The notes under the pieces are model-generated. The model was not told the origin of the DNA. It made no database searches and saw nothing but the letters and a program-made list of their open reading frames with translations. A DNA stretch of 64,000 nucleotides from a virus: the IMG/VR virus record IMGVR_UViG_3300033994_001756, positions 108,254 to 172,253 of that record; one strand, 5' to 3'. Position 1 is the first letter of the stretch. The number at the start of each line of letters is the position of its first letter. Made by a program: the position numbers and the translations under genes. This document shows, one piece after another, positions 4,208 through 52,525 of this stretch.

Positions 4208-4209
4208 TA

Positions 4210-8706: not shown

Positions 8707-8742
8707 AAATATTTTATGATAAGCCTTTTATAATAAGTATTT

Positions 8743-10570: not shown

Positions 10571-10578
10571 CCTAAATA
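10571..10578 (+). promoter_or_regulatory. Late-promoter-like box before gp26
   Basis: CCTAAATA lies 28 bases upstream of the gp26 ATG, in a 35-base gap between gp54 and gp26. It resembles the T4/cyanophage late -10 box TATAAATA (6-7 of 8). A sigma70-like TATAGT at about 10591 is a second possibility. Confidence 0.45.
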
Positions 10579-10605
10579 AATTGAGATTATGTTATAGTAT
10601 ACACT

Positions 10606-11316
10606 ATGCCTTTACCTAAAATTGTAACTCCGACGTATGAATTGCGTTTACCATCAACTGATCAATTAATTAAATATAGACCATTTCTAGTAAAAGAAGA
10701 AAAAGTTCTTCTGATGGCGATGGAATCTGAAGATGAATCTCAGATGATTAATGCAGTGAAAACCATCCTAAGAAATTGCATTAACTCTAAAATTAAAGTT
10801 GATGACCTAGCAGTATTTGATATCGAATATTTGTTCCTCAATATTCGTGCTAAGTCTGTGGGAGAACAAATCGAACTCAACATCACTTGCCCAGATGATG
10901 GGGAAACTACAGTTCCACTAGAGATTAATGTTGAGGATATTCAGATTCAAAAGTCTGAAGATCATTCTAGAATTATTTCATTGAATGATACTATTTCTGT
11001 TGTAATGAAATACCCTAGTATGGAAATGTTTGTTAAGTCAAACTTTACAGCTAGTGTAAAAACTGAAGACGTATTTGAGATTGCTGCATCTTGCATTGAA
11101 CAAGTTGTAGAAGGGGAAGATGTTTATGAAACCAAGAGTTTCTCTAAAAAAGAAATTAACGATTTCCTTGATAGCTTAGATACTGCACAGTTTTTACTGA
11201 TTCAAAAATTCTTTGAGACTATGCCAAAGCTATCTCATACAGTTAAGGTTACTAACCCAGTAACAAATGTAGAAAGTGATGTGGTACTAGAAGGTCTTGC
11301 AGCTTTTTTCGCATAG
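10606..11316 (+). CDS. 26: gp26-like baseplate hub assembly chaperone (0-frame product)
   Basis: A 236-residue protein matching gp26 (T4_baseplate chaperone family). It has a conserved N-terminal YELRLPSTDQLIKYRPFLVK followed by EEKVLLMAMES, a CPDD-type strand pair (ITCPDDGETTVPLEINVEDI), and a C-terminal helical part. gp26 helps assemble the central hub (gp27, gp5, tape measure) and is homologous in role to tail assembly chaperones of other tailed phages. The last codons contain a slippery heptamer, and the next 62 codons are open in the -1 frame (see separate entries), so this gene probably makes two products as lambda G/GT does. Confidence 0.88.
   Translation: MPLPKIVTPTYELRLPSTDQLIKYRPFLVKEEKVLLMAMESEDESQMINAVKTILRNCINSKIKVDDLAVFDIEYLFLNIRAKSVGEQIELNITCPDDGETTVPLEINVEDIQIQKSEDHSRIISLNDTISVVMKYPSMEMFVKSNFTASVKTEDVFEIAASCIEQVVEGEDVYETKSFSKKEINDFLDSLDTAQFLLIQKFFETMPKLSHTVKVTNPVTNVESDVVLEGLAAFFA
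11304..11310 (+). other. Probable -1 ribosomal frameshift site in gp26
   Basis: T-TTT-TTC fits the X-XXY-YYZ rule read in the gp26 frame: a Phe codon in P and Phe in A slip to TTT-TTT with tRNA-Phe able to read both. The 0-frame stop TAG follows only one codon later (11314-11316). The -1 frame is open for 62 more codons. The stretch has no ATG, GTG or TTG near its beginning that could start it independently with a ribosome site. Confidence 0.7.
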
Positions 11317-11498
11317 CCCTAGCGCACGAATCGCTAGAAAATTACTTTAGAATTAATTTTATATTACTTCAACATCATAAGTGGTCTCTTTCCGAAATTG
11401 AATGTATGTTACCATGGGAAAGAGAAATTTATGTTCAGATGTTAGTTGACTATATTGAAGAGGAAAATAATAGAAACAGAACAACAACATCGTTGTAG
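11310..11498 (+). CDS. Frameshift extension of gp26 (gp51/GpT-like chaperone domain)
   Basis: In the -1 frame, 62 codons run from CGC 11310 to TAG 11496-11498. They encode a polar helical domain (AHESLENYFRINFILLQHHK, WSLSEIECMLPWEREIYVQM). The W-S-x-x-E-(I/L) ... P-W-E-R-E-x-Y pattern is the one seen in frameshifted tail assembly chaperones of many tailed phages. Fused to gp26 it would give a 297-residue protein. In T4 the hub assembly chaperone gp51 is a separate gene next to gp26; this domain may be its functional counterpart. The only in-frame ATG (near 11403) would give a 32-residue fragment missing the conserved helix start. It ends 4 bases before the tape-measure start. Confidence 0.7.
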   Translation, partial: RIALAHESLENYFRINFILLQHHKWSLSEIECMLPWEREIYVQMLVDYIEEENNRNRTTTSL

Positions 11499-11502
11499 TT
11501 AA

Positions 11503-36376: not shown

Positions 36377-39300
36377 ATGGCTACAAATATTAGGCTTAAA
36401 TCTAGCTCTCAATCTGGAAAAGAACCTACACTTTCAGAATTGTCTCTAAGAGAATTGGCAGTTAATACTGCTGATGGCAAATTATTCCTTAGAAAGGGCG
36501 ATGGAACTGGCACAGATAAAATTATAGAGGTAACTGCCCCATTAAAGGCTAGTGAGCCTATGGGACACGAAGATAAGTCTCAAAGTACCATTTCTTTTGA
36601 CAGTGGAACTAGGGTTTTCACGATTCAACCAAGTTCTACCTCATTCAATGTTTGGTGTAAAGGAGTAAAGTATAATATAACTAGTGCTCGCACAGTAACT
36701 ATTCCAAATACGACTGGACTATATTTTATTTACTTTGATGCAGATGGAGTTCTACAATATAGAACTTCATATTTTGATTGGGAGAATGATACTCCAACTG
36801 CGTATGTTTATTGGAATTCAACTACTGCAACTGCGCCATTTGTGGCAGACGAAAGGCATGGTATTGTTTTAGATTGGCAAACCCACGAATACCTACACAG
36901 AACTCGTGGTGCAGTAATTGCTAATGGATTTTCAATCAGTAATTATATTACCACCGGAACTGGTGCAAACAATTCAGATGCTCAGTTTGATCTCAGCGGT
37001 GGTACATTTTTTGATGAAGATTTAGAAGTTATAGTTACTCATAGTAATAGTCCGACTGCAAATACATGGCAACAAGATTTGCAAGGTCCAGCTCGAATTC
37101 CGGTTTTTTATCAGAGTGGAAATTCGTGGGTGGTGGATGCTCCTACAGATTATGCTGTAAAGCAAGGAACATCAAGAATTAAGTATAATTTATTGAGTGG
37201 GGGAACGTGGTCAACTCCAGATGTAGCTACCAATACTCATTATACTACATCTTGGATAATTGCGACAAACAATATCAATTACCCTGTAATTACAATTATG
37301 GGGCAGAGTCAATCAAGTTTAATCAGTGATCAAGAAGAATTAACATTTGCTGATTTAACTTTAAGTGATTTTCCAATTGTAGAATTTAGACCTATTTGGA
37401 AAATTATTTGGCAGACAGATTCTGGATATGCTAATACTCCAAAAGCAAGAATTGCTGCCGTATTTGATATTAGACAACTTACTTCCACTGGTGGGATTTC
37501 TGGAACTACTCCAGTATCTGACCATGGATTGCTCAGTGGACTTGGTGATGATGATCATTTACAATATGTGCATGTTAGTGAAAACAGAACTATTACTGCA
37601 AATCATACTATTACTGGCAATTTAACTTTATCTAGTGGATTAAGAGATAGATTAGGTAATTTAGGTAGTGCTGGACAATTTTTATCATCTACTGGTACAA
37701 ATATAGAGTGGAAATATCCAACTGTTACAAATGTTTTATATGTATCTAAAGATGGTAATGATTCAAATTCTGGAACTAGTTTACAGAATGCTAAAGCTAC
37801 AATAAAATCTGCATTGTCAGTTGCATCTGCAGGAACTGTAGTAAAAGTTTCGGCTGGAAATTATATAGAAAATAATCCAGTTATCATTCCAGCACAAGTT
37901 AGTGTAGTTGGAGATTCTTTAAGAGAAGTCAGTGTTAGTCCTCAAAATTCTGGAAATTTATTTTATGTAAACAATGGATCATATGCATCCAATATGTCAT
38001 TTACATCATCAACATCAAACAGCGGAGCAATATTTTCATTTAATCCGTCAGATCCTCCATATATTAATCAGTCTCCATATATTCAAAATTGTACTAATTT
38101 TATTTCTGGGTCCACTGGATTACTTATTGATGGAGATAATTGCATCGGACAACTTAAGAGTATGGTCGTAGATTCATATACACAATTTAATCAAAATGGA
38201 ATTGGTGCTAAAATACAAAATGATGGATATGCTCAATTGGTATCTATGTTTACAATATGCACAGATAAAGCTATTGAATGTAGAAATGGTGGCGGTTGTG
38301 ATTTAACTAATTCCAATTCATCATTTGGAAATTATGGGTTAATTGCTGATGGAGTTAGTGATTTAAAATATACTGGAAGTGTAACCTCTGCTATTTCTGC
38401 GAATACAACAGATAGTATAAATGTAGATATTTCTACTCCTACATATAATGTTACCGGGGCATCTTATAATAATTCTACTGGAGAAGTTACAGTTACAATT
38501 GGATCTCATTCAATTCAAGTTGGAATGGATGTAAAAATTGAAAATTTAACTTTTAGTTGTACTTCTGGTGGATCATCCAGTAATCAAGTATTTCCTTCCG
38601 GAAATTATGGATATGTATTTACGGTAAAATCTGTAACATCTACTTCAATAACTGCAAATGTTGGAAGTTCTACATTGAGTCATACTTATGTATCTGGCGG
38701 AACTGTTAAAATTAACAATGTAAAGCCATATGATGGTCAAGTAGTTACTTTTAATAATACTTTATATTATCAAGTTAACAAAATTACTATTACGAATGGT
38801 GGAAATAATTATACAACAGCACCAAATATTACAATATCTAGTCCAGCAACTTCTTGGGGAATTGGTGCTCAAGCTATAGCTGAAATTCAAAACGGCCAAA
38901 TTAAATCTATCGAAGTTATCTCATCTGGTAGAGGATACACATCCAGTCCCCCAACATTAACATTGTCTGGGGGTGGAGGTTCTGGAGTTACATATTCAGT
39001 TGAAATGGCCCCACAATATTATGTGATAGATACTACAGAACAACTAAGTTCAAATAATTATAAAATTACTCTTACTGATACAATTCCATTTAGTGTTGCT
39101 CAAAATGATTCAATTGAATTTTATAAACAGACTAGATTATTAGCATCTGGGCATTCATTTGAATATATTGGATCTGGAACTGATATTCAAACTAGTTTAC
39201 CGTTTAAAGGTGGGGTAAGCATTCAAGAAAATGAAGTTGATATGAAAAATGGAGGATTAGTAGTATATACATCTACTGATCAATCCGGAAACTTTAGAAT

Positions 39301-39409
39301 AGGCGATGGAGTTGTAATAAATCAATTAACCGGAACAATAACTGGAAATTCTTACTCTAAGAGTTTATTTTCATCAATAACTCCATTCATTCTAGCTTTA
39401 GGAGCGTAA
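36377..39409 (+). CDS. Tail fibre-like protein with beta-helix domain
   Basis: A 1,010-residue fibre protein. The N-terminus holds the phage fibre module ELSLRELAVNTADGKLFLRK, then GDG. Residues 60-380 form a beta-rich shaft or collar domain. At about 415-450 lies SGLRDRLGNLGSAGQFLSST, shared with the fibre at 39760. From 453 a pectate-lyase-like beta-helix begins (LYVSKDGNDSNSGTSLQNAK, VVKVSAGNYIENNPVIIPA). The C-terminal 120 residues look like a separate cap. Preceded by a terminator and a GTAAATAC late-like box. Probably a receptor-binding or side fibre. Confidence 0.82.
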   Translation: MATNIRLKSSSQSGKEPTLSELSLRELAVNTADGKLFLRKGDGTGTDKIIEVTAPLKASEPMGHEDKSQSTISFDSGTRVFTIQPSSTSFNVWCKGVKYNITSARTVTIPNTTGLYFIYFDADGVLQYRTSYFDWENDTPTAYVYWNSTTATAPFVADERHGIVLDWQTHEYLHRTRGAVIANGFSISNYITTGTGANNSDAQFDLSGGTFFDEDLEVIVTHSNSPTANTWQQDLQGPARIPVFYQSGNSWVVDAPTDYAVKQGTSRIKYNLLSGGTWSTPDVATNTHYTTSWIIATNNINYPVITIMGQSQSSLISDQEELTFADLTLSDFPIVEFRPIWKIIWQTDSGYANTPKARIAAVFDIRQLTSTGGISGTTPVSDHGLLSGLGDDDHLQYVHVSENRTITANHTITGNLTLSSGLRDRLGNLGSAGQFLSSTGTNIEWKYPTVTNVLYVSKDGNDSNSGTSLQNAKATIKSALSVASAGTVVKVSAGNYIENNPVIIPAQVSVVGDSLREVSVSPQNSGNLFYVNNGSYASNMSFTSSTSNSGAIFSFNPSDPPYINQSPYIQNCTNFISGSTGLLIDGDNCIGQLKSMVVDSYTQFNQNGIGAKIQNDGYAQLVSMFTICTDKAIECRNGGGCDLTNSNSSFGNYGLIADGVSDLKYTGSVTSAISANTTDSINVDISTPTYNVTGASYNNSTGEVTVTIGSHSIQVGMDVKIENLTFSCTSGGSSSNQVFPSGNYGYVFTVKSVTSTSITANVGSSTLSHTYVSGGTVKINNVKPYDGQVVTFNNTLYYQVNKITITNGGNNYTTAPNITISSPATSWGIGAQAIAEIQNGQIKSIEVISSGRGYTSSPPTLTLSGGGGSGVTYSVEMAPQYYVIDTTEQLSSNNYKITLTDTIPFSVAQNDSIEFYKQTRLLASGHSFEYIGSGTDIQTSLPFKGGVSIQENEVDMKNGGLVVYTSTDQSGNFRIGDGVVINQLTGTITGNSYSKSLFSSITPFILALGA

Positions 39410-39759: not shown

Positions 39760-42700
39760 ATGGCAAATTATCTTTCAGATAGACTTAAAAAGTTACAGGT
39801 TGGTATTTCTGGGTATACCGATTCCATTGATGTTGCCAATATTATTGGAAACTCTACTTTTGATGGTTCTGTAGAACTAAAAAAATCTTTAAAAGATAAA
39901 GATGGCCAGGTAGGAACTTCTGGTCAAATTTTAGCATCTAGTGGCACTGGAATACAATGGATATCTGCACCACCAGGAGGAGTTTCAGTATATGAAGAAA
40001 ATACATTATTAGGAAATTTGTATGGCACTACAGAAATTAAATTTGTTGGAAATTATATAACTGCAACTTCATCTGGATCAACTGCAACTGTAACTCTTTC
40101 AGATTTATCATTAGATAATTTAACAGATGTTGTTATTTCATCTCCATCCAATAATCAATTATTGAGATATAATAACTCAAATACTAGATGGGAAAACTGG
40201 ATTCCAAATTTTACTCTAGGTACTGATACAACTGGAAATTACGTAGCAAATTTAGTTGCTGGCACTGGAGTTACTCTTACTAATGGTACGGCAACTGAGG
40301 GAGGAACTCCTACAATATCAATCGGACAAAGTGTAGGTACAACTGATAATGTATCATTTAATAATTTAACGGTTGCTGGAACATTAACAGTCAATGGAAC
40401 TTCAACAGTTATTAATTCAACTGTAACTACAATTGATGATCCAATTATTACATTAGGAGGAGATACTGCTCCAACAACTGATGATTCAAAAGATCGTGGA
40501 ATAGAGTTTAGATGGCATGACGGATCAAATGCAAAAATTGGTTTTTTTGGATTTGATGATAGTACAGGATATCTGACATATATTCCAGATGCAACCAATT
40601 CAAGTGAAGTTTTTAGTGGTACTCTTGGAGACATTCAAGCAACTAATTTTCGTGGTGCATTAGTAGGAAACGCAGATACTGCCACTAAATGGAGTACAAA
40701 ACGCACATTAACATTAAGTGGAGATGTATCTGGAACTGCTACTGATATTGATGGATCTGGTAATATAAGTGTTACTTCAACTTTAGCAAGTTCTGGAGTA
40801 ACTGCTGGAACATATACATCAGTTACAGTAGACACTAAAGGTAGAGTAACCGCCGGGACTAATCCAACAACTTTAGGTGGCTATGGTATAATAGATGCAT
40901 TAACTACTTCTTCCACATCTACCCAATCTGGTTATTTTGGTGATATTTTCTTGTATGATGATTCAACGCCAAGTCATTATCTACAAATAACAAATAGTGC
41001 TAATTTAACGGCAGAAAGGACATTAAGTGTTAATGTTAATGATGCAGATAGAACTATATCATTAAGTGGTAATTTAACCATTAGTTCTAATGCTACTGTT
41101 TCAGGAAGTAACACAGGAGATCAAACTATAGAACTAACTGGTGATGTAACTGGTACTGGTACTGGATCATTTGCTACTACATTATCCAACTCTGGAGTAA
41201 GTGCCGGAACATATACATCAGTTACAGTAGATGCTAAAGGTAGAGTAACAGCAGGGTCAAATCCATCGATAGCACTTACTGATTCACCATCATTTACCAC
41301 TCTAGTAAATTTAAATAATCAAGCTGAACTTAGATTTTTAGAAGATACCACTAATGGAACCAATTATGTAGGACTTAAGGCACCGGCAAATATAACTACA
41401 AATAGAATTTGGGTTCTTCCAAATGTAGATGGTACTAATGGCCAAGCTTTAATTACTGATGGAGCTGGAAATTTATCTTGGAATACTTTTGGTGGAGTAG
41501 ATTTTCTAACTAGTAGCAATACATCAACTCAATCTGGTTATTTTGGTGATATTTTCTTGTATGATGATTCAACGCCAAGTCATTATCTACAAATAACAAA
41601 TAGTGCTAATTTAACGGCTACTAGATCATTGAGTGTCAATGTTAATGATGCAAATAGAACTATCTCCCTTTCTGGAAACTTAACTGTTTCTGCAGATGCT
41701 ACTGTTTCAGGAAGTAATACAGGAGATCAAACTATAACATTAACTGGCGATGTAACTGGGACTGGTACTGGATCATTTGCTACTACATTATCCAACTCTG
41801 GAGTCACATCTGGGACATACACATCAGTTACAGTAGATGCTAAAGGTAGAGTAACAGCAGGGACCAATCCTACAAGTACTGGAACAGGAAATGAAGTAAG
41901 AGCAGATTCACCATCATTTACTACCCTAGTAAATTTAAATAATCAAGCTGAACTTAGATTTTTAGAAGCTTCTGGAAATGGAACCAATTATGTTGGATTT
42001 GAAGCTCCAGCAAACATAACTACAAACACAATTTGGTTTCTTCCGAATGCAGATGGCACTGCTGGGCAGGCATTAGTTACCAATGGATCTGGAACTTTAT
42101 CTTGGGCTACCGCTGGTGGTGGTGGTGCAAGTGGATTTGGAGGTTATAACAATTCAATTACATCATCAGTTTTTGTTTCTGTTACTTCTGGAATTGGCAC
42201 AACTGTAGCATCTTTGAATGATATTACTACTGGTCCAGGTATTGCATATACATTTCCATCGACTGCCGGTAAAAAATATGTAATCGAATCTATACATGTT
42301 ACCAATACATTTACTAATGAATTATATTTTGTAGCAAGACATGACTTTAATGGTGGATCAAATGTTCCATTGGCCCAACGAGTGATTGTTCCATATCAAG
42401 GTGCGATGGAATTTTTAGATCAACCAATTATCGCAAGTCCATCAGATACTATAAGATTTCAAGCACTTTCTAATGCTTCGCCAACTGCAGTAGGTATTGA
42501 TGGGGGTTTGGATGCATTTATTATCATTTCAGAAAAAAGTGACACTACTTATATTGGAACTGGAGGTATAGTATCAACTGCAACGGGAACTCAAATTTTC
42601 CAGGCAACAACAGGGAATGCAATGTTGCAATCAATTAAACTTTGCAACTATAGTTTAAATACTGATATTGATGCATCTGTTTCTATCTATCGTGGCACTT

Positions 42701-42873
42701 TGGCATCTGGAGTAAGATTAGGATACTTAGCTTTTAATATTACAATTCCAAAAAATAGTGTAATTGAACTATTAGTAAAACCAAAATATCTTGCAACAAA
42801 TGATTCTATAGTCGCATCAGCATCTTTAGCAAGCGCATTGGCAGTCACATTATCAGGCAAATATATAGTATGA
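39760..42873 (+). CDS. Repeat-containing tail fibre protein
   Basis: A 1,037-residue fibre. The N-terminus (LSDRLKKLQVGISGYTDS) and a DGQVGTSGQILASSGTGIQW element are shared with other cyanophage fibres. The shaft contains tandem units of about 200 residues, each with a SGYFGDIFLYDDSTPSHYLQ block, a TGDVTGTGTGSFATTLSNSG block, a TYTSVTVDAKGRVTAG block and a FTTLVNLNNQAELRFLE block. T4-like and other fibres use such TSVTVDxKGRVTAG motifs for triple beta-helices. The C-terminal 250 residues form two related beta-sandwich modules for receptor contact. A 606-base period is visible in the DNA (see repeat). Confidence 0.85.
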   Translation: MANYLSDRLKKLQVGISGYTDSIDVANIIGNSTFDGSVELKKSLKDKDGQVGTSGQILASSGTGIQWISAPPGGVSVYEENTLLGNLYGTTEIKFVGNYITATSSGSTATVTLSDLSLDNLTDVVISSPSNNQLLRYNNSNTRWENWIPNFTLGTDTTGNYVANLVAGTGVTLTNGTATEGGTPTISIGQSVGTTDNVSFNNLTVAGTLTVNGTSTVINSTVTTIDDPIITLGGDTAPTTDDSKDRGIEFRWHDGSNAKIGFFGFDDSTGYLTYIPDATNSSEVFSGTLGDIQATNFRGALVGNADTATKWSTKRTLTLSGDVSGTATDIDGSGNISVTSTLASSGVTAGTYTSVTVDTKGRVTAGTNPTTLGGYGIIDALTTSSTSTQSGYFGDIFLYDDSTPSHYLQITNSANLTAERTLSVNVNDADRTISLSGNLTISSNATVSGSNTGDQTIELTGDVTGTGTGSFATTLSNSGVSAGTYTSVTVDAKGRVTAGSNPSIALTDSPSFTTLVNLNNQAELRFLEDTTNGTNYVGLKAPANITTNRIWVLPNVDGTNGQALITDGAGNLSWNTFGGVDFLTSSNTSTQSGYFGDIFLYDDSTPSHYLQITNSANLTATRSLSVNVNDANRTISLSGNLTVSADATVSGSNTGDQTITLTGDVTGTGTGSFATTLSNSGVTSGTYTSVTVDAKGRVTAGTNPTSTGTGNEVRADSPSFTTLVNLNNQAELRFLEASGNGTNYVGFEAPANITTNTIWFLPNADGTAGQALVTNGSGTLSWATAGGGGASGFGGYNNSITSSVFVSVTSGIGTTVASLNDITTGPGIAYTFPSTAGKKYVIESIHVTNTFTNELYFVARHDFNGGSNVPLAQRVIVPYQGAMEFLDQPIIASPSDTIRFQALSNASPTAVGIDGGLDAFIIISEKSDTTYIGTGGIVSTATGTQIFQATTGNAMLQSIKLCNYSLNTDIDASVSIYRGTLASGVRLGYLAFNITIPKNSVIELLVKPKYLATNDSIVASASLASALAVTLSGKYIV
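40924..41012 (+). repeat. 89-base direct repeat, copy 1
   Basis: Identical over 89 bases to 41530-41618, 606 bases (202 codons) downstream, both in the same frame of the fibre gene. Surrounding sequence is similar but diverged, so this is a recently homogenised part of an intragenic duplication. Confidence 0.93.
41530..41618 (+). repeat. 89-base direct repeat, copy 2
   Basis: Second identical copy of 40924-41012. Frame is preserved, so copy number could change by recombination without breaking the fibre. Confidence 0.93.
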
Positions 42874-42889: not shown

Positions 42890-43549
42890 ATGTCTCTTTT
42901 AATTGCTATGCCTTGTTATGGTGGACTTGTCAGTGATAAAACAGCAAAAGGATTATTTAATCTGGGGAAAGAACTGAGAACCGCAAACATTGACCATGGT
43001 TTACTTACAATGGCAAATGAAAGTCTTGTTACTCAAGCAAGATCTAAGATGGTTAATTTTTTTATGAATAATACAGAATATGAAAGAATTTTATTTATTG
43101 ATGCTGATGTTGGATTTACTGCGGAAGATGTATTTAATCTTTTAAAGTACGATAAAGATATTATATGTGGAGCTTATCCTATGAAAGGAATTCCACTTAG
43201 ATATAATTATAATATTACAAAACCAGAAATAATTGAAGGAGAATTAATACAAATTGAAAATATTGGGTTTGGTTTTGCTATGATTAAAAGAAAAATTTTT
43301 GAGGATATTTCTCAAAAATATGGTGAAGAATTAAAATACTATCCACCAACTAATAATTCTACTTTCCCACCAACTGAAAAAGAATATAATAATTCATATC
43401 ATTACTTTCTAGAACTTAAAAAAGATATGGCATATCTTCCTGAAGATTTTTCATTTTTTGAAAGAGCAAAAAGTGTTGGATACACTGTCTGGTTAAATAG
43501 TAATATTAGACTCGCCCACGTTGGGTCTCACGTTTATCAAGAAGGATAA
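42890..43549 (+). CDS. GT-A fold glycosyltransferase-like protein
   Basis: A 219-residue protein with a nucleotide-sugar binding pattern. It starts LLIAMPCYGGLVSDKTAKGL, has a VTQARSKMVNFFM helix, then RILFIDADVGF, the D-x-D motif that binds the metal and UDP/GDP-sugar. It continues with CGAYPMKGIPLRYNYN and a C-terminal acid (LPEDFSFFERAKSVG) typical of GT2-like enzymes that end AHVGSH. It precedes the first propeller gene by 4 bases. The substrate is unknown; the enzyme may glycosylate phage structural protein or host surface glycan. Confidence 0.8.
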   Translation: MSLLIAMPCYGGLVSDKTAKGLFNLGKELRTANIDHGLLTMANESLVTQARSKMVNFFMNNTEYERILFIDADVGFTAEDVFNLLKYDKDIICGAYPMKGIPLRYNYNITKPEIIEGELIQIENIGFGFAMIKRKIFEDISQKYGEELKYYPPTNNSTFPPTEKEYNNSYHYFLELKKDMAYLPEDFSFFERAKSVGYTVWLNSNIRLAHVGSHVYQEG

Positions 43550-43553
43550 TTAA

Positions 43554-45380
43554 ATGGCAACTGGTGTTTTTGGACTTAACAGAGTTTATAAAAATCAATA
43601 CCAAAATGTAAAAAGTAATAATTTTGCAAGTTGGCCTGAGTCTGGCAATTATGGTTACTATGCTTCGGGATCCAATCTTAGCACTGTTTTTGCAAGACTT
43701 GATTTTTCCAATGAGACTGTAAGTGACCCAGGAAAATATTTACCTTCAGGATCTAGGCGTTTTGCAATGGGAGTTTTCAATAATTCATATGGGTATGTTG
43801 GTGGTGGAGATACACCACCAAATTTTATAAACACTAACACCATTACAAGACTTGATTTTTCGACTGAAAATGTAAGTCTTCCTGGAAATAATTTACCATC
43901 AGCAGGAACAAACGCAGCTGGAGTTTCTGGTAAATCATATGGTTATTTTGCTGGAGGCAATTATTCAGGATTTGTCTCTAGTAACATCAGAAGACTTGAT
44001 TTTTCTAATGAAACTTTTAGTATCCCGGGACAAAATATACCTTCAGAAAGACACTATATAAGGTCAGTTTTTACTGATTTATATGGTTATCTTGCGGGTG
44101 GATTTGATCCAGGATTTGTGCTAACTAACACTATACCAAGGCTTGATTTTTCTAACGAAACTGTAAGTAGTCCAGGAAAAAATTTACCTTCAGGAAGAAG
44201 TAATGTTGGACCAATTTTTAACAATTATTTTGGATATTTTGGTGGTGGATATCTCAATGGTCCATACATAAGTAATATTACAAGACTTGATTTCTCAAAT
44301 GAAACTGTAAGTGACCCAGGAAACAATTTGCCTGGTGTACGGGGACATATAGCAGGAACTTCAAGTAATACTTATGGATATTTTGGAGGTGGCGGAACTC
44401 CTGGATTTGACTCGAATGTAATCAATAGACTTGATTTTTCTAGTACAACATTAAATAATCCAGGGAAAAATTTACCTATGATAGTTGTTTCGGCGGTTGG
44501 ACTTACTGGAGGTAAATCTTATACTAAAATGACCAAAACTTATGGGTACTTTGGTGGTGGATACTTTCCAGTATTTGTTAATACAATTTCAAGACTTGAT
44601 TTTTCAACTGATGGTTTTAGCAATCCTGGAAAAAATTTACCAACTGTTAGGGGATGGACCGCAGCAGTTTCAAATAATTTTTACGGATACTTTGGTGGTG
44701 GAGCTAGTCCATCAATTATCAATACAATATCAAGACTTGATTTCTCCAATGAAACTGTAAGTGATCCTGGAAAAGATTTACCTTTAGCAAGATATAATTT
44801 CGCAGGAACATCAAGTAATTCTTATGGATATTTTGGTGGTGGGGCTGCCCCAGGAACAGAGATTTGCACAATAACAAGACTTGATTTCTCCAATGAAACT
44901 GTAAGTGATCCTGGGAAAAATTTATCATCAGCATTACAAAATTCAGTAACAGTCTCAAATAGTTCATATGGATATTTTAGTGGTGGACACTCCACAATAT
45001 CAAGACTTGATTTTTCCAATGAAAATGTAAGTAATCCTGGGAAAAATTTATCATCAGCATTACAAACTATGACAGCAGTTTCAAATAATTCTTATGGATA
45101 CTTTGGTGGTGGGTATTTACCACCATATATTAATACAATTTCTAGACTTGATTTTTCCAATGAGACAGTAAGTAATCCCGGAAAGAATTTACCAGTTGGT
45201 GTTAGTAGATTGGGTGGAACATCATCTATGTTTTTTGGATATTTTGCAGGAGGTCAGACTTCACCGACTGTAAGAACTGCCTCTGTCTCAAAGATTGATT
45301 TCTCAACCGAAAATATAAGTGCTTCTCCTAGTTTACCAAGTGCTAGAAATATTTTAACAGGTCTTTCAAACTCAAACTAA
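43554..45380 (+). CDS. Kelch-like repeat protein 1 (putative receptor-binding protein)
   Basis: A 608-residue protein made of 12 repeats of about 46-50 residues. Each has a YGYFGGG turn, an I-x-RLDFSNETVS strand pair and PGKNLP, with a loop of variable length between. The GG...YDP...W...LP order is that of Kelch-type four-stranded propeller blades. Repeats 1-6 and 7-12 are split by a short linker at about 315-330 (LTGGKSYTKMTK). An N-terminal segment of about 30 residues (VFGLNRVYKNQYQ, NNFASWPES) is shared with two paralogues and probably attaches it to the virion. I infer two six-bladed propellers, or one twelve-bladed. Variable loops between blades suit ligand binding. Confidence 0.8.
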   Translation: MATGVFGLNRVYKNQYQNVKSNNFASWPESGNYGYYASGSNLSTVFARLDFSNETVSDPGKYLPSGSRRFAMGVFNNSYGYVGGGDTPPNFINTNTITRLDFSTENVSLPGNNLPSAGTNAAGVSGKSYGYFAGGNYSGFVSSNIRRLDFSNETFSIPGQNIPSERHYIRSVFTDLYGYLAGGFDPGFVLTNTIPRLDFSNETVSSPGKNLPSGRSNVGPIFNNYFGYFGGGYLNGPYISNITRLDFSNETVSDPGNNLPGVRGHIAGTSSNTYGYFGGGGTPGFDSNVINRLDFSSTTLNNPGKNLPMIVVSAVGLTGGKSYTKMTKTYGYFGGGYFPVFVNTISRLDFSTDGFSNPGKNLPTVRGWTAAVSNNFYGYFGGGASPSIINTISRLDFSNETVSDPGKDLPLARYNFAGTSSNSYGYFGGGAAPGTEICTITRLDFSNETVSDPGKNLSSALQNSVTVSNSSYGYFSGGHSTISRLDFSNENVSNPGKNLSSALQTMTAVSNNSYGYFGGGYLPPYINTISRLDFSNETVSNPGKNLPVGVSRLGGTSSMFFGYFAGGQTSPTVRTASVSKIDFSTENISASPSLPSARNILTGLSNSN

Positions 45381-45384
45381 TATT

Positions 45385-46212
45385 ATGAAAACTTTTTATT
45401 TTATGTCTGGACTTCCACGTTCAGGTTCTACCTTACTGACAGCATTACTCAATCAAAATCCAGAAGTACATGCATCTACAAACTCTCCACTTTTAGATAC
45501 AATACACTACACAGAAGAGTATCTTTTATATCAATCAGAACAATACAAAGCAACACCAAATCCAGAAGGAGCACATAAGGTCTTATCATCAATACCTGAT
45601 AACTATTACTTCAATATCCCACAAGACATTATTATAGATAAATCCAGAGGTTGGGTTAATGAAATTCAACACATTCAAGATTATATTACAAAAGAACCAA
45701 AGATTATATGTCCAGTCAGAGATATTCAAGATATTATCTCCTCATTTCTAAATCTTGTTTATCATTCAAAAACAACTTCTTTTATTGACGAAGCACTTAT
45801 TTCTAATGGTATAGAGATTAATAATGATAATCGTGCAGACTACCTAATGTCTCCACAAGGGATTATCGGACAATCATATCATGCACTTTCAGAAGCATTT
45901 CGTAAAGGTAACAATAAATATTTGTTATTAGTTGAATACGATAATCTGGTAAATAAACCACAACAAGAACTTAATCGCATTTATGACTTCTTAGAACTTT
46001 CAAAATTTACTCATACTTTTGAAAATATAAAACCAAAATGTGATGAGAACGACGAAGTTTATGGTTTAGAGAATATGCACACTGTCAGAAATAAGGTTGA
46101 AAAAATACATCGTGATAATACAAAGTTCTTAAGTGAGTATGTGATTGATAAATATAATTATATGGAGTTCTGGAAATCAAGAACTCAAAGATATTCTATT
46201 TTTGGACTCTAA
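45385..46212 (+). CDS. PAPS-dependent sulfotransferase
   Basis: A 275-residue sulfotransferase. The 5'-phosphosulfate loop (MSGLPRSGSTLLTALLNQNP) is at residues 8-26 and the 3'-phosphate site (CPVRDIQDIISSFLN) near 108-122, with a conserved Ser in place. LVEYDNLVNKPQQELNRIYD is the typical helix after the core. It transfers sulfate from PAPS to a hydroxyl or Tyr acceptor. Genes of this kind are rare in phages. It begins 4 bases after propeller gene 1 and its TAA overlaps the ATG of propeller gene 2 (TAATG), so it is translationally coupled to the latter. The acceptor could be a Tyr-rich propeller or a glycan. Confidence 0.87.
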   Translation: MKTFYFMSGLPRSGSTLLTALLNQNPEVHASTNSPLLDTIHYTEEYLLYQSEQYKATPNPEGAHKVLSSIPDNYYFNIPQDIIIDKSRGWVNEIQHIQDYITKEPKIICPVRDIQDIISSFLNLVYHSKTTSFIDEALISNGIEINNDNRADYLMSPQGIIGQSYHALSEAFRKGNNKYLLLVEYDNLVNKPQQELNRIYDFLELSKFTHTFENIKPKCDENDEVYGLENMHTVRNKVEKIHRDNTKFLSEYVIDKYNYMEFWKSRTQRYSIFGL

Positions 46213-48083
46213 TGGCAGTATTTTCACTCAACGAAGTTAAGGTAGAACAAGTAAAAAATATTGAAAATAATAACTTCATTAGTTGGCCCGAAAGTGCTAG
46301 TTATGGATATTTTGGAGGTGGATATATTGCTGGCACGCCTAGTGTATCATCCAATTTTAATAGACTTGATTTTTTCAATGAAACATTAAGTGCCCCTGGA
46401 AGAAATTTACCTTCAGCAATATCAAGAGGTGCAACAGCAACTTCAAATTTATATGGATATTTTGGTGGAGGTAGTTTTGGTTCAGGTGGAGTGTCTGTAG
46501 TCACAAGACTTGACTTTTCTAATGAAACTTTTAGTAGTCCAGGAAAAAATTTATTTCTTGGATCTAGATTACTTGGTGGTGTTTCTAGCATTTCATATGG
46601 ATATTTTATTGGTGGGTTTACTCCAGGTTTTGATAGTACAATACAAAGACTTGATTTCTCTAGTGAAAATGTAAGTAACCCTGGAAAACCTTTGCCTTTT
46701 GGAAGGGCAGGGATTGCAACTGTGTCAAATAATCTATATGGTTATGTGGGGGGTGGTGCGGTAACAAGTTTAATTGCAAGACTTGATTTTTCGACAGAAA
46801 ATATAACTACTCCAGTAAATAGGTTACCTAATACTAGAGATTCTTTTGGTGGAGTTTCTAGTAAATTATATGGATATTTTGGAGGTGGTTATACTTGGCC
46901 ACCAGCTTTAGTATATAATACTATTACAAGATTGCAGTTTGACACCGAAACCATAAGTAATAATCCTAGCACACTAGCAGGTATTTCTAGAGCATCTCCT
47001 TCAACAGTTAACACTGACTCATATGGATATTTTGCTGGTGGATTTTTCTCACCTCCATATTCATTTGTAAGTACTATAACTAGACTTGATTTTGGGACAG
47101 GAAGTACAACTAATTTAGCTAACAATCTTCCACAAAATAATCATGGACTATATTCAATGTCTGGTGGGACATCATTTTATCGTGGTTCTAAAACTTATGG
47201 ATATTTTGCTGGAGGTAATGATCCGGTTCCTTCAGCAATTTCTACAATCAATAGACTTGATTTTTCTAATGAAACATTAAGTGACCCCGGAAAAAATCTT
47301 CTAGTAAATTGTGGTAACTCAGCAACGGTAGCATCTAATAATTATGGTTATATATGTGGAGGAAATCGGCCAAGTTTGTTTACTTCTGTAGTGCAAAGAC
47401 TTGATTTTGTTAATGAAACTGTAACTATCACTGGAAAAAATTTACCTATGCAAACTGGTAATGTAACAGGGACTTCATCAAGTTCTTATGGATATATAAT
47501 TGGTGGATATACTGGGGTGACACCACCAGTATGGTTTACTTCTTTAATCAGAAGAATAGATTTTTCAACCGAAAATGTAAGTCTTCCGGGAAAAAATTTA
47601 CCTGGAGTAAGATATTCTGCGGCAACAGTTGCAAATACATCTTATAGTTATATTTGTGGCGGTGATATTCCTACTGGTAGAACATCTAATGTTTTTAGAC
47701 TTGACTTTTCTAACGAAACTGTAAGTAGTCCAGGAAAAAATTTACCACTGGCCGCAACAGGTCAAGGCTCAGTTTCTACTAATTTATATGGTTATATTGC
47801 GGGTGGATTTGCACCACCAATCAGTACCATTACAAGACTTGATTTTTCCACAGAAAATTTAAGTCTTCCTGGCAAAAATTTCACAATACCAAGATCTAAT
47901 ATAAGAGGAACACTAAGTAGTTATTATGGATATTTTGCTGGTGGAAGCAATCCACCAACCTCAGCGAACCTCAGCACTATCACAAGAATTGATTTTATCA
48001 CAGAAAATTTAAATGATCTAGCAAATAATTTTTCCATAACAAAATTTTCAGTAAATTCACTGGCAAACTCAAACACACACTAA
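46212..48083 (+). CDS. Kelch-like repeat protein 2 (putative receptor-binding protein)
   Basis: A 623-residue paralogue with the same plan: N-terminal VFSLNEVKVEQVKNIENNNF, ISWPES; twelve YGYFGGG-type repeats; and a central linker after repeat 6 (MSGGTSFYRGSKTYGYF, about residue 315-328). Several blades vary the turn (YGYICGG, YSYICGG). It ends ANSNTH, with a short terminal strand that may close the ring. Starts in a 1-base overlap with the sulfotransferase. The stop codon forms part of an ACTAAATA late-type box. Confidence 0.8.
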   Translation: MAVFSLNEVKVEQVKNIENNNFISWPESASYGYFGGGYIAGTPSVSSNFNRLDFFNETLSAPGRNLPSAISRGATATSNLYGYFGGGSFGSGGVSVVTRLDFSNETFSSPGKNLFLGSRLLGGVSSISYGYFIGGFTPGFDSTIQRLDFSSENVSNPGKPLPFGRAGIATVSNNLYGYVGGGAVTSLIARLDFSTENITTPVNRLPNTRDSFGGVSSKLYGYFGGGYTWPPALVYNTITRLQFDTETISNNPSTLAGISRASPSTVNTDSYGYFAGGFFSPPYSFVSTITRLDFGTGSTTNLANNLPQNNHGLYSMSGGTSFYRGSKTYGYFAGGNDPVPSAISTINRLDFSNETLSDPGKNLLVNCGNSATVASNNYGYICGGNRPSLFTSVVQRLDFVNETVTITGKNLPMQTGNVTGTSSSSYGYIIGGYTGVTPPVWFTSLIRRIDFSTENVSLPGKNLPGVRYSAATVANTSYSYICGGDIPTGRTSNVFRLDFSNETVSSPGKNLPLAATGQGSVSTNLYGYIAGGFAPPISTITRLDFSTENLSLPGKNFTIPRSNIRGTLSSYYGYFAGGSNPPTSANLSTITRIDFITENLNDLANNFSITKFSVNSLANSNTH

Positions 48084-48086
48084 ATA
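48079..48086 (+). promoter_or_regulatory. Late-promoter-like box overlapping stop of repeat gene 2
   Basis: ACTAAATA contains the TAA stop at 48081-48083 and lies 22 bases before the next start. It matches TATAAATA in 6 of 8. The same arrangement occurs at 52521. Confidence 0.5.
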
Positions 48087-48107
48087 AAATACCTACATCA
48101 TTTTGAT

Positions 48108-49811
48108 ATGAAATCTGGAGCAACTGAAAGTTCTTTTTATTACCTAAATCAACATTATCAATTTCCAAATAATGTTGAAGTTTCAAGAAGTATAGAAGTC
48201 TTAGCACAATCAGATAAACAATATAAAATTCTCTGGGCGCATGATAACTGTGACCAACCACAACTCTTAAGACTTCCAGAACTTGTATCGCAGATTGATA
48301 AGATTGTCTGCGTATCAAACTGGGAAGCAGAGCAATATATCAAATATAAGCGAGCACCGGAAGACAAAATTGTAGTCATTCCAAATGGTGTTGCAGATAT
48401 TTTCAATCTTAAATCCCCAAAATCAAAGACAGCAATCTATTTCTCTGGGCCACACAAGGGTATTGTACCACTTCCAAAAATTTGGAGGCAGGTGATTCAA
48501 AATCACCCAGATGCAAAGTTAAAAGTATTTTCTTCTCATAATCTTTATGGAGAACAATACGAACAACACTTTAAGATTCCAGAACACTTAGAGGCAATTG
48601 AAGAATTAAAGTCTCTTCCTGGTGTTGAGTATTCTCCTTGTATTGACCGTGAAACACTACTACCTCATATCCAAGATGCTGCATTCTTCGTACATCCTAA
48701 TGTCTGGGAAGAGACCTTCTGCGTGTCTCTAGCAGAGGCAATGGTTTGTGGGTGTTATCCAATTACCAGTGATATAGGAGCATTAAGTGAAATTTCATTC
48801 AATCGTGGTAAGTACATTCCAATGGATGGAAAAAATACTTCGGTTGGTTGGGAGCCATCTCCCAAGTTTATCAATGAATTCGCGCAAGAACTTTCAAGAT
48901 GTTTTGAGTTTTTTGATAAAGAACCAGAAACTTTTTATAATGCAACGAAAGAACTTTCTTGTATCACCAAAGAAACTTATGATTGGAAGAAAATTGCAGT
49001 AGTATGGAAAAACCTCATTAATAATATTCAGTCTCAAACAGTAAGTCGCCCAAAGTATTACTGTATGGTGAATATAAAGTGTTCTGAAAAGTATACTCAC
49101 CTTGCTTTAGATACATTCTTCAGAAATAGTATTTTCAATTCAAATGATAAGTTCTTCTTGATTGATAATGATAAAACATTTACTCAAGACTATGAGAATG
49201 TAACAATCATTTCAAACTCATCACCAAAGTCATTTGCAGAGAATATGAACTTTATTCTCAAACAAGCACTTATCGATGGTGCTGATTTTGTTGGACTGAA
49301 TAATGATATTGCATTTACAAAAAATTGGAATCACAATCTTGGTGACTCTAGTAGTATTTCAATTCCATTATGCAATCAACATCTACAGGTTGGTGGACTA
49401 AAACCAGAAATGCAACTTGAAGAGTTTGTTGGAAAAGAAGATCAATTGAATGAGTTAGCACAACATATTACAACAAACAACCAAGATATTCCTACAAATT
49501 TAATCAAAGCATTCTATTGTTTCTATGTTCCTCATGAAGTGAGTTCAAAGGTTGGTCTGCTGGATGAAGAGTTTGGACTTGGTGGTGGAGAAGATATTGA
49601 TTATACCTTAAGAGCAGAACAACTTGGTATTGAAACTAAGTTTAATCGTGGTTCATATCTTCTACATTTTTCTCATAGAACATTAGATCATGAGACAGTA
49701 GAAGAAAAAGATAAAAGAACAGAACAATTATACCTGCATTTTTGTAAAAAGTGGGGTAAAGAAATTGCAAATTCAAGATTATCTCTTGCAGTAACTCAAA
49801 GATATTCTTGA
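48108..49811 (+). CDS. Two-domain glycosyltransferase (GT-B then GT-A)
   Basis: A 567-residue enzyme. Residues 1-310 are a GT4-like GT-B domain: VCVSNWEAEQYIKYKRAPED, IPNGVADIF, a sugar-nucleotide E-x7-E motif in ETFCVSLAEAMVCGCYPITS, and DIGALSEIS. Residues 320-567 are GT-A-like: YCMVNIKCSEKYTHLALDTF, DGADFVGLNNDIAFTKNWN (a D-x-D-type site) and LDEEFGLGGGEDIDYTLRAE, the acceptor-side ED loop of GT2 enzymes. Such a fusion could add two sugars in sequence. Located 24 bases after propeller gene 2. Donor and acceptor unknown. Confidence 0.87.
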   Translation: MKSGATESSFYYLNQHYQFPNNVEVSRSIEVLAQSDKQYKILWAHDNCDQPQLLRLPELVSQIDKIVCVSNWEAEQYIKYKRAPEDKIVVIPNGVADIFNLKSPKSKTAIYFSGPHKGIVPLPKIWRQVIQNHPDAKLKVFSSHNLYGEQYEQHFKIPEHLEAIEELKSLPGVEYSPCIDRETLLPHIQDAAFFVHPNVWEETFCVSLAEAMVCGCYPITSDIGALSEISFNRGKYIPMDGKNTSVGWEPSPKFINEFAQELSRCFEFFDKEPETFYNATKELSCITKETYDWKKIAVVWKNLINNIQSQTVSRPKYYCMVNIKCSEKYTHLALDTFFRNSIFNSNDKFFLIDNDKTFTQDYENVTIISNSSPKSFAENMNFILKQALIDGADFVGLNNDIAFTKNWNHNLGDSSSISIPLCNQHLQVGGLKPEMQLEEFVGKEDQLNELAQHITTNNQDIPTNLIKAFYCFYVPHEVSSKVGLLDEEFGLGGGEDIDYTLRAEQLGIETKFNRGSYLLHFSHRTLDHETVEEKDKRTEQLYLHFCKKWGKEIANSRLSLAVTQRYS

Positions 49812-49817
49812 TAAATA
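49810..49817 (+). promoter_or_regulatory. Late-type promoter box
   Basis: GATAAATA (7 of 8 with TATAAATA), overlapping the TGA of the glycosyltransferase and lying 30 bases before the next gene. Confidence 0.55.
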
Positions 49818-49847
49818 ACAATAACACTATTAAAAGATTGAATAAGT

Positions 49848-50687
49848 ATGTCTAACAATTATGAAGCAATTGCACTTGCAACATCTAAAGAAGTTTTAGA
49901 TGATAGTAATGAGTTTATGTTAAAAGTTCTTCAAGAGGCAACTCGTTGGGAAGAAAGTGAAACTGAACTTGCACAAGGTCGTTCAGATTTTCAGATTGAG
50001 AAGTTTATTATTCACGACAATTTCACAATCCCATCAGCATTTAAAGCTGCACTGATTAATCGTAGAAGTGTAGCCGAAGGACTTCTACAACAAGTCATTG
50101 AAGCAAAAAGATCCGCAAGAGAATTTCACTACAAGTGGGATGGAAAAGATAAAACACAACCCATCTGGTGGAAGACACGTCAAGGTGGAGAAGAACTTTC
50201 CTGGTATGATGTTGATGAGTTTCATTTTCATCGTATGCTTGAAGGATTGAACCGTGGTTTTAAAGCAGCGGTTGAAGAACTCGAATGCTTCGACAAACTC
50301 ATTAATCGTTTGATTGAACTGAATGGTGGCAAATTGGTTTCAAGAGACCAATATAATGAAGACCAACCAAACTACTGGGAGCGCAGACTTGCAAATCAAT
50401 CTCTGGATGATTTACTCGCTGCAAGAACTGGTGTAAATGCTGGTAATATTCGTTCTATGAGAAGAGCAAGTGCTCCTACAGTATTACCTGATGATGTAAA
50501 TCGCACCAAGGGAAGTTTTGGAGATCCAAATAATCCTATGGATTTTCTGAATAGTCTTCAGCAAGCAGTTGCTTCTGGTATTGAAGAAATTACAGGTATG
50601 GATCAACAACTTCTTCGTGGTGTTGAAGAGCAAACACAGAAACAAATTCCCGAGTCATTATTTAACCCAGACCTTAGAGTAGAGTAA
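49848..50687 (+). CDS. 279-residue protein of unknown function in the repeat-protein cassette
   Basis: A mostly helical protein. Regions seen are a helix-rich start (EVLDDSNEFMLKVLQEATRW), a Trp/Arg patch (YKWDGKDKTQPIWWKTRQGG), a His/Phe patch (YDVDEFHFHRMLEGLNRG), and a Pro-rich, flexible C-terminus (NDPNNPMDF-like, then LFNPDLRVE). No enzyme motif is recognised. Its place, 6 bases before propeller gene 3, is the same as that of the glycosyltransferase before propeller 1 and the sulfotransferase before propeller 2, so it may be a partner, chaperone or modifier of that protein. Confidence 0.78.
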   Translation: MSNNYEAIALATSKEVLDDSNEFMLKVLQEATRWEESETELAQGRSDFQIEKFIIHDNFTIPSAFKAALINRRSVAEGLLQQVIEAKRSAREFHYKWDGKDKTQPIWWKTRQGGEELSWYDVDEFHFHRMLEGLNRGFKAAVEELECFDKLINRLIELNGGKLVSRDQYNEDQPNYWERRLANQSLDDLLAARTGVNAGNIRSMRRASAPTVLPDDVNRTKGSFGDPNNPMDFLNSLQQAVASGIEEITGMDQQLLRGVEEQTQKQIPESLFNPDLRVE

Positions 50688-50692
50688 ATCCG

Positions 50693-52525
50693 ATGCCTGT
50701 TATAGGAGACACTTTTGGATTAAATTCTGTTTATGAAAAACAAGTACAAAATATAGAATCAAATAACCTTGTAAGTTGGCCTGAAAGTGCAACTTATGGA
50801 TATTTTTGCGGTGGCATTTCACCTATATCAACTATCAGCACAATTACAAGACTTGATTTTTTTAGTGAAATTGTAAGTCTTCCTGGAAAAAATTTACCTG
50901 TGGCATTTAATAGTACTGGAACAGTAAGAAGTATTTCTTTTGGGTATTTTGGTGGAGGCGGAATTGATGGCGGAAGCGTTTCCACCATCACAAGATTTGA
51001 TTTTTCTAATGAAACTATAAGTCTTCCAGGAAAGAATTTGCCAATGACATTAGCTAGTCCAGGGATTTCTAGTAAATCCTATGGATACTTTTTTGGCGGA
51101 AATGGCCAGCCAACCACAATTAGTACAGTCCATAGACTTGATTTTCTCAGTGAAACTATATCTGCTCCTGGAAAAAATCTTCCAGCAACTAGAACTGATG
51201 CGGCAACAGTTTCAACTGATTTATATGGTTATCTTGCTGGAGGATGGCTAAGCGAACCATCAATTTTTACAGCATATAGTACAATCACAAGATTTGATTT
51301 TTCAAATGAAAATATAAGTAATCCTGGAAGAAATTTACCTGCGAACATCTATGGTACTCAGGGAATATCTGGAAATTCTTTTGGATATTTTTGTGGTGGA
51401 TGGAATTTTCCGGCAAGTGGCAGAATTAGTACAGTCTCAAGACTTGACTTTTCAAATGAAACTTTAAGTGCTCCTGGAAGTAATCTTCCGGAAGCAAGAA
51501 ATGTTATGACCGCAGTTTCAAATAGTTCTTTTGGATATATTGGCGGTGGATTTACAACAGGACGTATTAGTACAATAACAAGATTTAATTTATCCAATGA
51601 AACTACAAGTAATCTTGCGGTTAGTTTACCCGAAAGTATAAGTCAATCAATGTCACTTTCCGGTGGAGCATCAGTTTATCGTGGTTCTAAGACTTTTGGA
51701 TACTTTGCTGGCAGATTTCCCTCTGTAAATACAATATCAAGACTTGATTTCTCCAATGAAACTGTAAGTAATCCAGGAAAAAATTTGGGAACGGGAACAT
51801 TTGATTTAGGAGCAGTATCAAATAATTATTATGGATATTTTGTAGGTGGAAATGGTTTAAGTCTAATACAGAGATTAGATTTCTCTAATGAAACTTTAGG
51901 CAATCCTGGAAAAAATTTACCAATAATAGCCTGGAGTATGGGTTCAACCTCAAGTAATTCTTATGGTTATTTTGGGGGAGGATACAATCCTTCAACAAGA
52001 ATTAATACAGTCACAAGACTTGATTTCTCCAATGAAACTGCAAGTAACTCTGGAAATAATTTATCAACGGTAAGAGGAAATTTAACAGCAACTTCAAACA
52101 ATTCTTATGGTTACTTTGTTGGTGGTAATGCTCCGGGATTTTTAAGTACCATCACAAGACTCGATTTCTCAAATGAAACTGTAAGCAATCCTGGAAAAAA
52201 TTTACCAACAGCAAGACAGAATATAGGATCATTTTCAAATAATTCTTATGGATATTTTGGTGGTGGTTATGCTCCCCCTGTGATTAATACAATCACAAGA
52301 CTTGATTTCTCAAATGAAACTGTAAGCAATCCTGGAAAAAATTTACCAACAGCAAGAAATAGCGTAGGAGCAACCTCAAGTAGTTTTTATGGATATTATG
52401 GTGGTGGAAATCCAAATATAAACACCATCACACGACTTGATTTTTCCACAGAAAATGTAAGTGATCCTGGAAATAATTTGCCCGCATCAGGTGGACAGCG
52501 TGGTGTAGTTTCAAACTCAAACTAA
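50693..52525 (+). CDS. Kelch-like repeat protein 3 (putative receptor-binding protein)
   Basis: A 610-residue paralogue: N-terminal TFGLNSVYEKQVQNIESNNL, SWPES; twelve YGYFGGG/FGYFCGG repeats; and a linker after six (LSGGASVYRGSKTFGYF, about 321-333). Two late repeats are almost identical in DNA (around 52156 and 52291, the segment coding DFSNETVSNPGKNLPTAR). It ends VVSNSN as in protein 1 (LSNSN). As with the others, I predict two linked beta-propellers used in adsorption, with variable loops at the blade tops. Its stop is part of ACTAAATA. Confidence 0.8.
   Translation: MPVIGDTFGLNSVYEKQVQNIESNNLVSWPESATYGYFCGGISPISTISTITRLDFFSEIVSLPGKNLPVAFNSTGTVRSISFGYFGGGGIDGGSVSTITRFDFSNETISLPGKNLPMTLASPGISSKSYGYFFGGNGQPTTISTVHRLDFLSETISAPGKNLPATRTDAATVSTDLYGYLAGGWLSEPSIFTAYSTITRFDFSNENISNPGRNLPANIYGTQGISGNSFGYFCGGWNFPASGRISTVSRLDFSNETLSAPGSNLPEARNVMTAVSNSSFGYIGGGFTTGRISTITRFNLSNETTSNLAVSLPESISQSMSLSGGASVYRGSKTFGYFAGRFPSVNTISRLDFSNETVSNPGKNLGTGTFDLGAVSNNYYGYFVGGNGLSLIQRLDFSNETLGNPGKNLPIIAWSMGSTSSNSYGYFGGGYNPSTRINTVTRLDFSNETASNSGNNLSTVRGNLTATSNNSYGYFVGGNAPGFLSTITRLDFSNETVSNPGKNLPTARQNIGSFSNNSYGYFGGGYAPPVINTITRLDFSNETVSNPGKNLPTARNSVGATSSSFYGYYGGGNPNINTITRLDFSTENVSDPGNNLPASGGQRGVVSNSN

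Follow-up and report, generated by a model that had tools for sequence, protein, structure and literature searches.

What function is served by three large repeat proteins encoded side by side behind the tail genes of a cyanophage, and how do they change between related phages? The question was raised by a stretch of 64,000 nucleotides (hereafter, the window) covering positions 108,254 to 172,253 of the virus record IMGVR_UViG_3300033994_001756, that is, the last 64 kb of the 172,253-bp record. The presence of psbA and of a capsid gene of the gp23 type identifies the record as a T4-like cyanophage. The three genes, named A (43554..45380, 608 aa), B (46212..48083, 623 aa), and C (50693..52525, 610 aa), are ATG-to-stop open reading frames (ORFs), confirmed at the coordinates and lengths reported in an earlier note on this DNA, and no extra copies were found elsewhere in the record. 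These genes, their parts, and the adjacent genes described below are all on the plus strand. We consider it likely that the three proteins bind the host as tail-attached adhesins and that the exchange of whole propeller rings has diversified them.

The genes were delineated with a profile hidden Markov model (HMM) of the repeat, Pfam, and PHROG, and for C also with a structure model. All three proteins were assigned to phrog_19111, a family of unknown function (A, E 2.5e-183). Exactly 12 repeats were counted by the HMM in each of them, as the earlier note had proposed. The repeat is ~48 residues long and consists of strand b (YGYFGGG), the b-c loop, strand c (TIxRLDFS), strand d (ETxSxPGxNLP), the d-a turn (xxR), and strand a (xxAAVSS). 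Pfam PF24681 scored 74.8 for A and 56 for C (curated cut-off 50), and Kelch_3 scored 23.4, 26.9, and 37.6 for A, B, and C, respectively (curated cut-off 22). The classical Kelch_1 motif has a spaced Tyr and Trp. Among 549 parsed repeats, the double glycine after strand b was present in 96–97%, and no conserved Trp column of the Kelch_1 kind was seen. By their sequence, the repeats are of the Kelch_3 / galactose-oxidase type and were filed as Kelch-like, not as classical Kelch.

Homologues were collected in two scans of IMG/VR, which yielded about 115 partly overlapping loci (designated by L numbers); the second scan matched 204 stretches. When the 94 distinct homologues with 12 repeats were compared, repeats 6 and 7 were on average 57.7 residues apart vs 48.5 for the other spacings (Mann-Whitney p ~ 1e-48, relatedness among the 94 uncorrected), and this spacing was the longest in 83 of them, which bears out the distinct linker that had been noticed after repeat 6. 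In the window, the inter-ring linkers read TGG-KSYTKMTKT in A, SGG-TSFYRGSKT in B, and SGG-ASVYRGSKT in C. The shared N-terminus of ~30 residues was also recovered as a conserved motif, F-x-L ... NN-x2-SWPES, with F8, L10, Q17, N20, W29, and E31 invariant in an alignment of 38 sequences; it is, however, not the common anchor that had been suggested, since it occurs as three class-specific variants. A, B, and C thus belong to three separate orthologous classes distinguished by their N-termini and are not interchangeable copies, with one gene per class being usual in a locus. Two or three genes were assigned to class A in L089 and L109/L110, which may reflect a diverged lineage. The N-terminus was also considered as an element common to other known cyanophage tail proteins; a search with 45 aa (E <= 10) matched only the Synechococcus phage S-SKS1.

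For the fold, AlphaFold2 (AF2) was run on full-length C with 38 homologues and on ring 1 of C alone, and the models were compared with the PDB using Foldseek. The full-length model had a predicted local distance difference test score (pLDDT) of 84.6 and a predicted template modeling score (pTM) of 0.53, and ring 1 alone had 85.6 and 0.83, respectively. Low-confidence stretches were residues 1–10, 27–31, and 327–331, corresponding to the N-terminus and the linker. Full-length C matched six-bladed Kelch structures over about half of the query (target-normalized template modeling score, TMt, ~0.92; root-mean-square deviation, rmsd, 1.7 Å), and ring 1 matched such structures over ~290 residues (TMt 0.93–0.94, rmsd 1.6–1.8 Å). 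The top match of full-length C, 7on7_B, had 24% identity over 276 columns, and ring 1 aligned to the same chain with 17% identity over 288 columns; because these values differ, the full-length match probably covers ring 2. Structural neighbors of the fold included the designed SAKe proteins and the Kelch domains of Keap1 and KLHL.

The models strongly support closed six-bladed Kelch-type rings of four-stranded blades in C. The repeat order, read from the linker alignment and the DSSP strings, implies that ring 1 would be closed by the strand a that immediately precedes the linker, and ring 2 by the C-terminal strand a. The two tandem six-bladed propellers that had been predicted for these proteins are thus what the monomer model of C displays, with a break at 327–331, and neither a beta-helix nor a 12-blade ring was seen. 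A single 12-bladed ring was ruled out by the models, by the existence of forms with 6, 18, and 24 repeats, and by the ring exchange described below.

The modules were mapped as follows. In A, the class-A N-terminal module (MATGVFGLNRVYKNQ...SWPES, residues 1–32, 43554..43649; sequence comparison and alignment) is followed by ring 1 with repeats 1–6 (residues 33–319, 43650..44510; repeat HMM, approximate borders), the linker GKSYTKMTKT (residues 320–329, 44511..44540), and ring 2 with repeats 7–12 (residues 330–608, 44541..45377; repeat HMM). B comprises the class-B N-terminal module (MAVFSLNEVKVEQ...SWPES, residues 1–30, 46212..46301; sequence comparison and alignment), ring 1 (residues 31–318, 46302..47165), the linker GTSFYRGSKT (residues 319–328, 47166..47195), and ring 2 (residues 329–623, 47196..48080; repeat HMM). 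The class-C N-terminal module (MPVIGDTFGLNSVYEKQ...SWPES, residues 1–34, 50693..50794) has a helix predicted at residues 10–22 with low confidence, and precedes ring 1, closed and six-bladed in the model (residues 35–324, 50795..51664; AF2 and Foldseek), the linker GASVYRGSKT (residues 325–334, 51665..51694; pLDDT low at 327–331), and ring 2 (residues 335–610, 51695..52522; repeat HMM, AF2, and Foldseek).

From about 110 distinct IMG/VR homologues, the ring, and not the single repeat, emerged as the unit in which the family varies in size. Distinct intact ORFs carrying the N-terminal motif had 12 repeats in 94 proteins, 18 in seven, 24 in two, and six in one. Three proteins of 611–627 aa were scored as having 11 or 13 repeats, most likely owing to HMM miscounts, and further exceptions were short ORFs of 77, 224, and 381 aa. 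Gene B was cut to the N-terminus and one repeat (77 aa) in L033 (4455–4688) and also in L034–L038, which come from different samples. Ring borders in the 18- and 24-repeat forms were likewise marked by longer spacings. NWPESAN, the motif with which the N-terminus of 12-repeat proteins ends, also occurs in the first linker of the 18-repeat forms, as though an additional ring had been placed between the N-terminus and a 12-repeat array. The recurring multiples of six and the fixed linker position across homologues support selection on the 6+6 plan, as had been argued from the window, and not random repeat growth.

Other ring arrangements were also observed. L045 encodes two 24-repeat, four-ring homologues (2657–6454 and 7918–11760; 1265 and 1280 aa), and in L050 exactly six repeats lie within a protein bearing a Laminin_G_3 domain. 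The diverged locus of AG-345-L05 (L123, MH319754.1, 3107–16113), a single-cell Kyanoviridae record, has paralogues of 955, 968, and 916 aa laid out as about 6+6+6, 6+6+6, and 6+LamG+6, a LamG lectin domain replacing the middle ring in the last; related sulfotransferase, glycosyltransferase, and phrog_1574-like genes are present there, too. In L089 (2817–5345) and L109 (7879–10449), 12-repeat homologues have an additional C-terminal part, with a weak MAM-domain match in L089. The ring number within a phage was mostly equal among the classes (12/12/12, 24/24, or 18/18). Strict equality would suggest a heterotrimer, but L119 (12 repeats in A, 18 in C) and L095 (six in A, 12 in both B and C) depart from it; in L119, a contig of 219,018 bp, the 12-repeat gene A lies beside the 18-repeat gene C.

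Near-identical phages were found to differ by entire rings. In gene B, L019 and L024 were ~100% identical in ring 1 and 44–70% identical in ring 2, with identity rising again at the C-terminal end and reaching 93–100% downstream, and the comparison of L024 with L028 gave 41–88% for ring 1 and 97–100% for ring 2. L012 and L024 have ring 1 of B in common and differ in ring 2; from the pairwise identity profiles, B of L024 has a ring 1 of the L012 type and a ring 2 of the L028 type. Ring 2 of C differs between L012 and L019, and ring 2 of A differs more mildly. Between L012 and L028, the N-termini and neighboring genes were mostly above 85–90% identity, and differences extended over every repeat of the three propeller genes. 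Internal high-identity blocks ended at residues 36–40, 310–340, or within the last ~10 residues, the events not being independent, and alleles were repeated across independent assemblies (L019 = L020 = L021; L023 ~ L024). At the level of these identity profiles, the comparisons show that whole rings, or the whole repeat region with the N-terminus kept, are exchanged at module borders.

Within rings, variation was concentrated in loops. Across the 549 parsed repeats, entropy and length variation were highest in the b-c loop and the d-a turn, and strands b and c were nearly fixed; the b-c loop was 2–16 residues long, with one outlier of 30 residues. The window and L007, which belong to the same population, were identical in the compared parts of A and in all of C, and differed in and around B (45.6–50.4 kb). 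In gene B, 34 of 141 sites in b-c loops had changed vs 27 of 485 elsewhere (Fisher odds ratio 5.4, p 2e-9). The loop variability postulated in the earlier note was thus found both in the repeat alignment and in this pair. Kelch rings of the Keap1 type bind ligands on a single face, which is lined by the b-c and d-a loops; by this analogy, each ring should have its variable positions gathered on one binding face. A second stretch of high divergence from L007 (52650–54900, up to ~20%) lies outside the propeller genes. A diversity-generating retroelement was considered and rejected: no reverse transcriptase (PF00078) was found in the 172-kb record, which is possibly incomplete, and the pattern is one of loop substitution, indels, and block exchange.

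Upstream of the propeller cluster, a tail fibre protein (36377..39409; phrog_17885, E 5.9e-163) and a tail-fibre-like protein of 1037 aa (39760..42873) are encoded, and the tail region of the window also contains one ORF of 4568 aa (22072–35778). Each propeller class has a partner gene directly 5' of it, counted here with overlapping loci included. A 219-aa gene of phrog_1574, function unknown (42890..43549 in the window), precedes A in 23 of 33 cases, a sulfotransferase-family gene (45385..46212) precedes B in 48 of 60, and a 279-aa gene with a weak phrog_1409 match (49848..50687) precedes C in all 65. The 279-aa protein is a candidate assembly partner, chaperone, or adaptor of C. The sulfotransferase gene and B overlap by one base, the final base of the former being the first base of the ATG of B, and a glycosyltransferase-like gene (48108..49811) occupies the interval between B and C. 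Where the gene order is altered (A-C-B), the pairs of partner and propeller genes relocate together.

How the proteins would work as adhesins can be outlined from these results. The short class-specific N-terminal module most likely docks the protein to the tail or baseplate, and two autonomous six-bladed Kelch-type propellers would follow in tandem, each beginning at the b strand of the first blade and being closed by the final a strand within the ring (a 1:3 velcro). The b-c and d-a loops on one face per ring most likely bind cyanobacterial surface glycans or proteins. Homologous recombination would swap one ring or the whole array while retaining the docking module, which is possible because the rings fold alone and have conserved DNA borders (SWPES-YGYFGGG, the GGxS linker, and the C-terminal end). 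Baseplate and tail-fibre genes lie upstream of the cluster both in the window and in S-SKS1, the cultured relative, which is a phage of Synechococcus WH7803. We infer virion location and receptor binding from the position near the tail genes, the conserved N-terminus with a replaced distal part, and the ring exchange; N-terminal docking is inferred along with them. A host-derived origin of the genes was rejected, as no relative was confirmed among 85,462 prokaryote genomes.

Several observations weigh against the adhesin reading. Virion proteomics for the phage of the window or for S-SKS1 was not found. Known fibres are mostly shaft-bearing homotrimers; in these proteins, neither a domain for trimerisation nor a shaft was visible, and the passage from the N-terminus to ring 1 has no shaft-like sequence. 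The pTM of full-length C leaves the mutual placement of the rings unfixed, and its N-terminal helix was modeled at low confidence, so a docking role for it is a guess. The multiples of six are interrupted in C of L051 (6+4+6), in B of L016 (6+4), and in the truncated B genes of L033–L038. Where the high-identity blocks end at the N- and C-termini, purifying selection on the flanks could play a part; it would not account for the mosaic of rings 1 and 2, which needs recombination. The interleaved sulfotransferase, glycosyltransferase, and 2-oxoglutarate (2OG) oxygenase genes could indicate intracellular roles.

Of the other explanations, the one that survives best, while being unlikely, is that the proteins decorate the virion or tail surface and stick to glycans or particles, giving low-affinity attachment or stability without setting specificity. 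The Kelch propeller CBB_552 was detected in the virion by mass spectrometry (MS) without a receptor role being shown (PMC5259590), three large arrays per phage would suit a multivalent surface coat, and specificity could be determined by the tail-fibre genes at 36377 and 39760; whole-ring replacement with the N-terminus kept, together with loop-focused change, is however more typical of host-specificity parts. Somewhat less probable still are intracellular Kelch-type scaffolds that organize the sulfotransferase, glycosyltransferase, and oxygenase and remodel host sugars or proteins during infection. Poxvirus Kelch proteins do work within cells, and the characteristic partner gene beside each class would fit such a role, but the cluster comes after baseplate and tail-fibre genes in the window, S-SKS1, and AG-345-L05-like loci, the partner enzymes are absent from some loci (TF1037 A B P1409 C 2OG), a LamG lectin module takes the place of a ring, and enzyme scaffolds are not expected to trade binding rings among near-identical phages. 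Functionless repeat growth by slippage, with 6+6 being accidental or an assembly artefact, is very improbable: neighboring repeats do reach 75–90% DNA identity, and short-read assembly can collapse such repeats, Kelch repeats being under-recovered in assemblies (PMC9238414), but slippage would yield 11, 13, or 14 repeats where intact proteins almost all have 6, 12, 18, or 24, the linker position is fixed, and the same alleles turn up in assemblies made independently.

With most tail genes lacking annotation, the recognition of Synechococcus by wild cyanophages and its change over time are largely open questions. The family described here is widespread and combines a recognizable anchor with distinct module borders, variable loops that are known, natural ring-swap pairs, and a member in a cultured phage, S-SKS1, so how variation in tail genes relates to host range can be tested directly. 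It also constitutes a natural experiment in repeat-protein evolution, where nearly alike repeats recombine freely and the count stays a multiple of six, as would be expected if the ring must close. In the fullest version of the adhesin reading, set out below, host recognition would be diversified by recombination in a way that preserves the fold, with whole rings swapped rather than single blades.

Compared with known systems, the parts of this plan are familiar, and their combination was not found described. The earlier note knew of no phage receptor-binding protein (RBP) with this plan; that stands for the tandem multiples of six, ring swapping, and three-gene plan, which were not found in the openly accessible literature on Kelch or propeller receptor binders of cyanophages, but Kelch virion proteins and propeller RBPs as such are known (PMC5259590, PMC4901313). 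Jumbo phages carry Kelch proteins, including CBB_552 of a Pectobacterium phage, found in the virion by MS (PMC5259590), and the function of such Kelch-like proteins is described as unelucidated (PMC7760394). The jumbo-phage proteins (CBB gp550/552/554, PhiPA3 gp360 and its relatives) resemble A, B, and C as Kelch-type six-bladed propellers with structural matches in BFVD, and differ in their low similarity (~14% for gp360), in having no N-terminal module of the A/B/C kind, and in that no three-class cluster or ring exchange has been described for them. PhiPA3 gp360 (L127, 10154–12013), a hypothetical protein of a Pseudomonas phage with 619 aa and many Kelch repeats, aligns over its whole length and is plausibly a tandem double propeller. 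A Kelch protein also distinguishes the co-isolated cyanophages P-HM1 and P-HM2 (PMC3037559). Gp45 of Staphylococcus phage phi11 parallels the adhesin reading as an RBP with a beta-propeller that is probably sugar-binding (PMC4901313), whereas its ring is single, five-bladed, and non-Kelch, in a homotrimer with a triple-helical stem and tower domains and no tandem rings. PRD1 P2 and PhiKZ gp131C, as cited in that paper, also have propeller domains and are phage receptor binders, either proven or putative; these domains are single, five-bladed-like or seven-bladed, and unrelated in sequence to A, B, and C. The designed SAKe proteins and the Keap1 and KLHL domains have the fold and blade number of the A/B/C rings, but are designed or eukaryotic, single-ring, and of other function.

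The closest counterparts are in cyanophages. SWZG_00001, SWZG_00287, SWZG_00289, and SWZG_00291 of S-SKS1 (phrog_19111) share both the family and the gene neighborhood, and are annotated as hypothetical, several of their ORFs being interrupted or divided at the ends of the record. In Synechococcus phage S-SRM01 (L128, NC_070963.1, 3555–11982), the RCC1-repeat genes gp335, gp337, and gp344 come right after baseplate wedge and long-tail-fibre genes and, like A, B, and C, are interspersed with or followed by genes for 2OG oxygenase, sulfotransferase, and glycosyltransferase; they differ in being RCC1 and not Kelch, with a single ring of ~seven repeats, and no shared N-terminus was seen. This trio, annotated as 'regulator of chromosome condensation', is probably the tail-locus counterpart of the Kelch trio, and RCC1-type propellers of this kind may fill the same slots in other cyanophages. 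The fullest version of the adhesin reading, to which we give slightly less than an even chance, is a three-slot locus in which arrays of one to four rings are inherited and exchanged ring-wise at the linkers, can be replaced by other lectin folds such as LamG, are accompanied by slot-specific partner genes, and in other cyanophages perhaps give way to RCC1.

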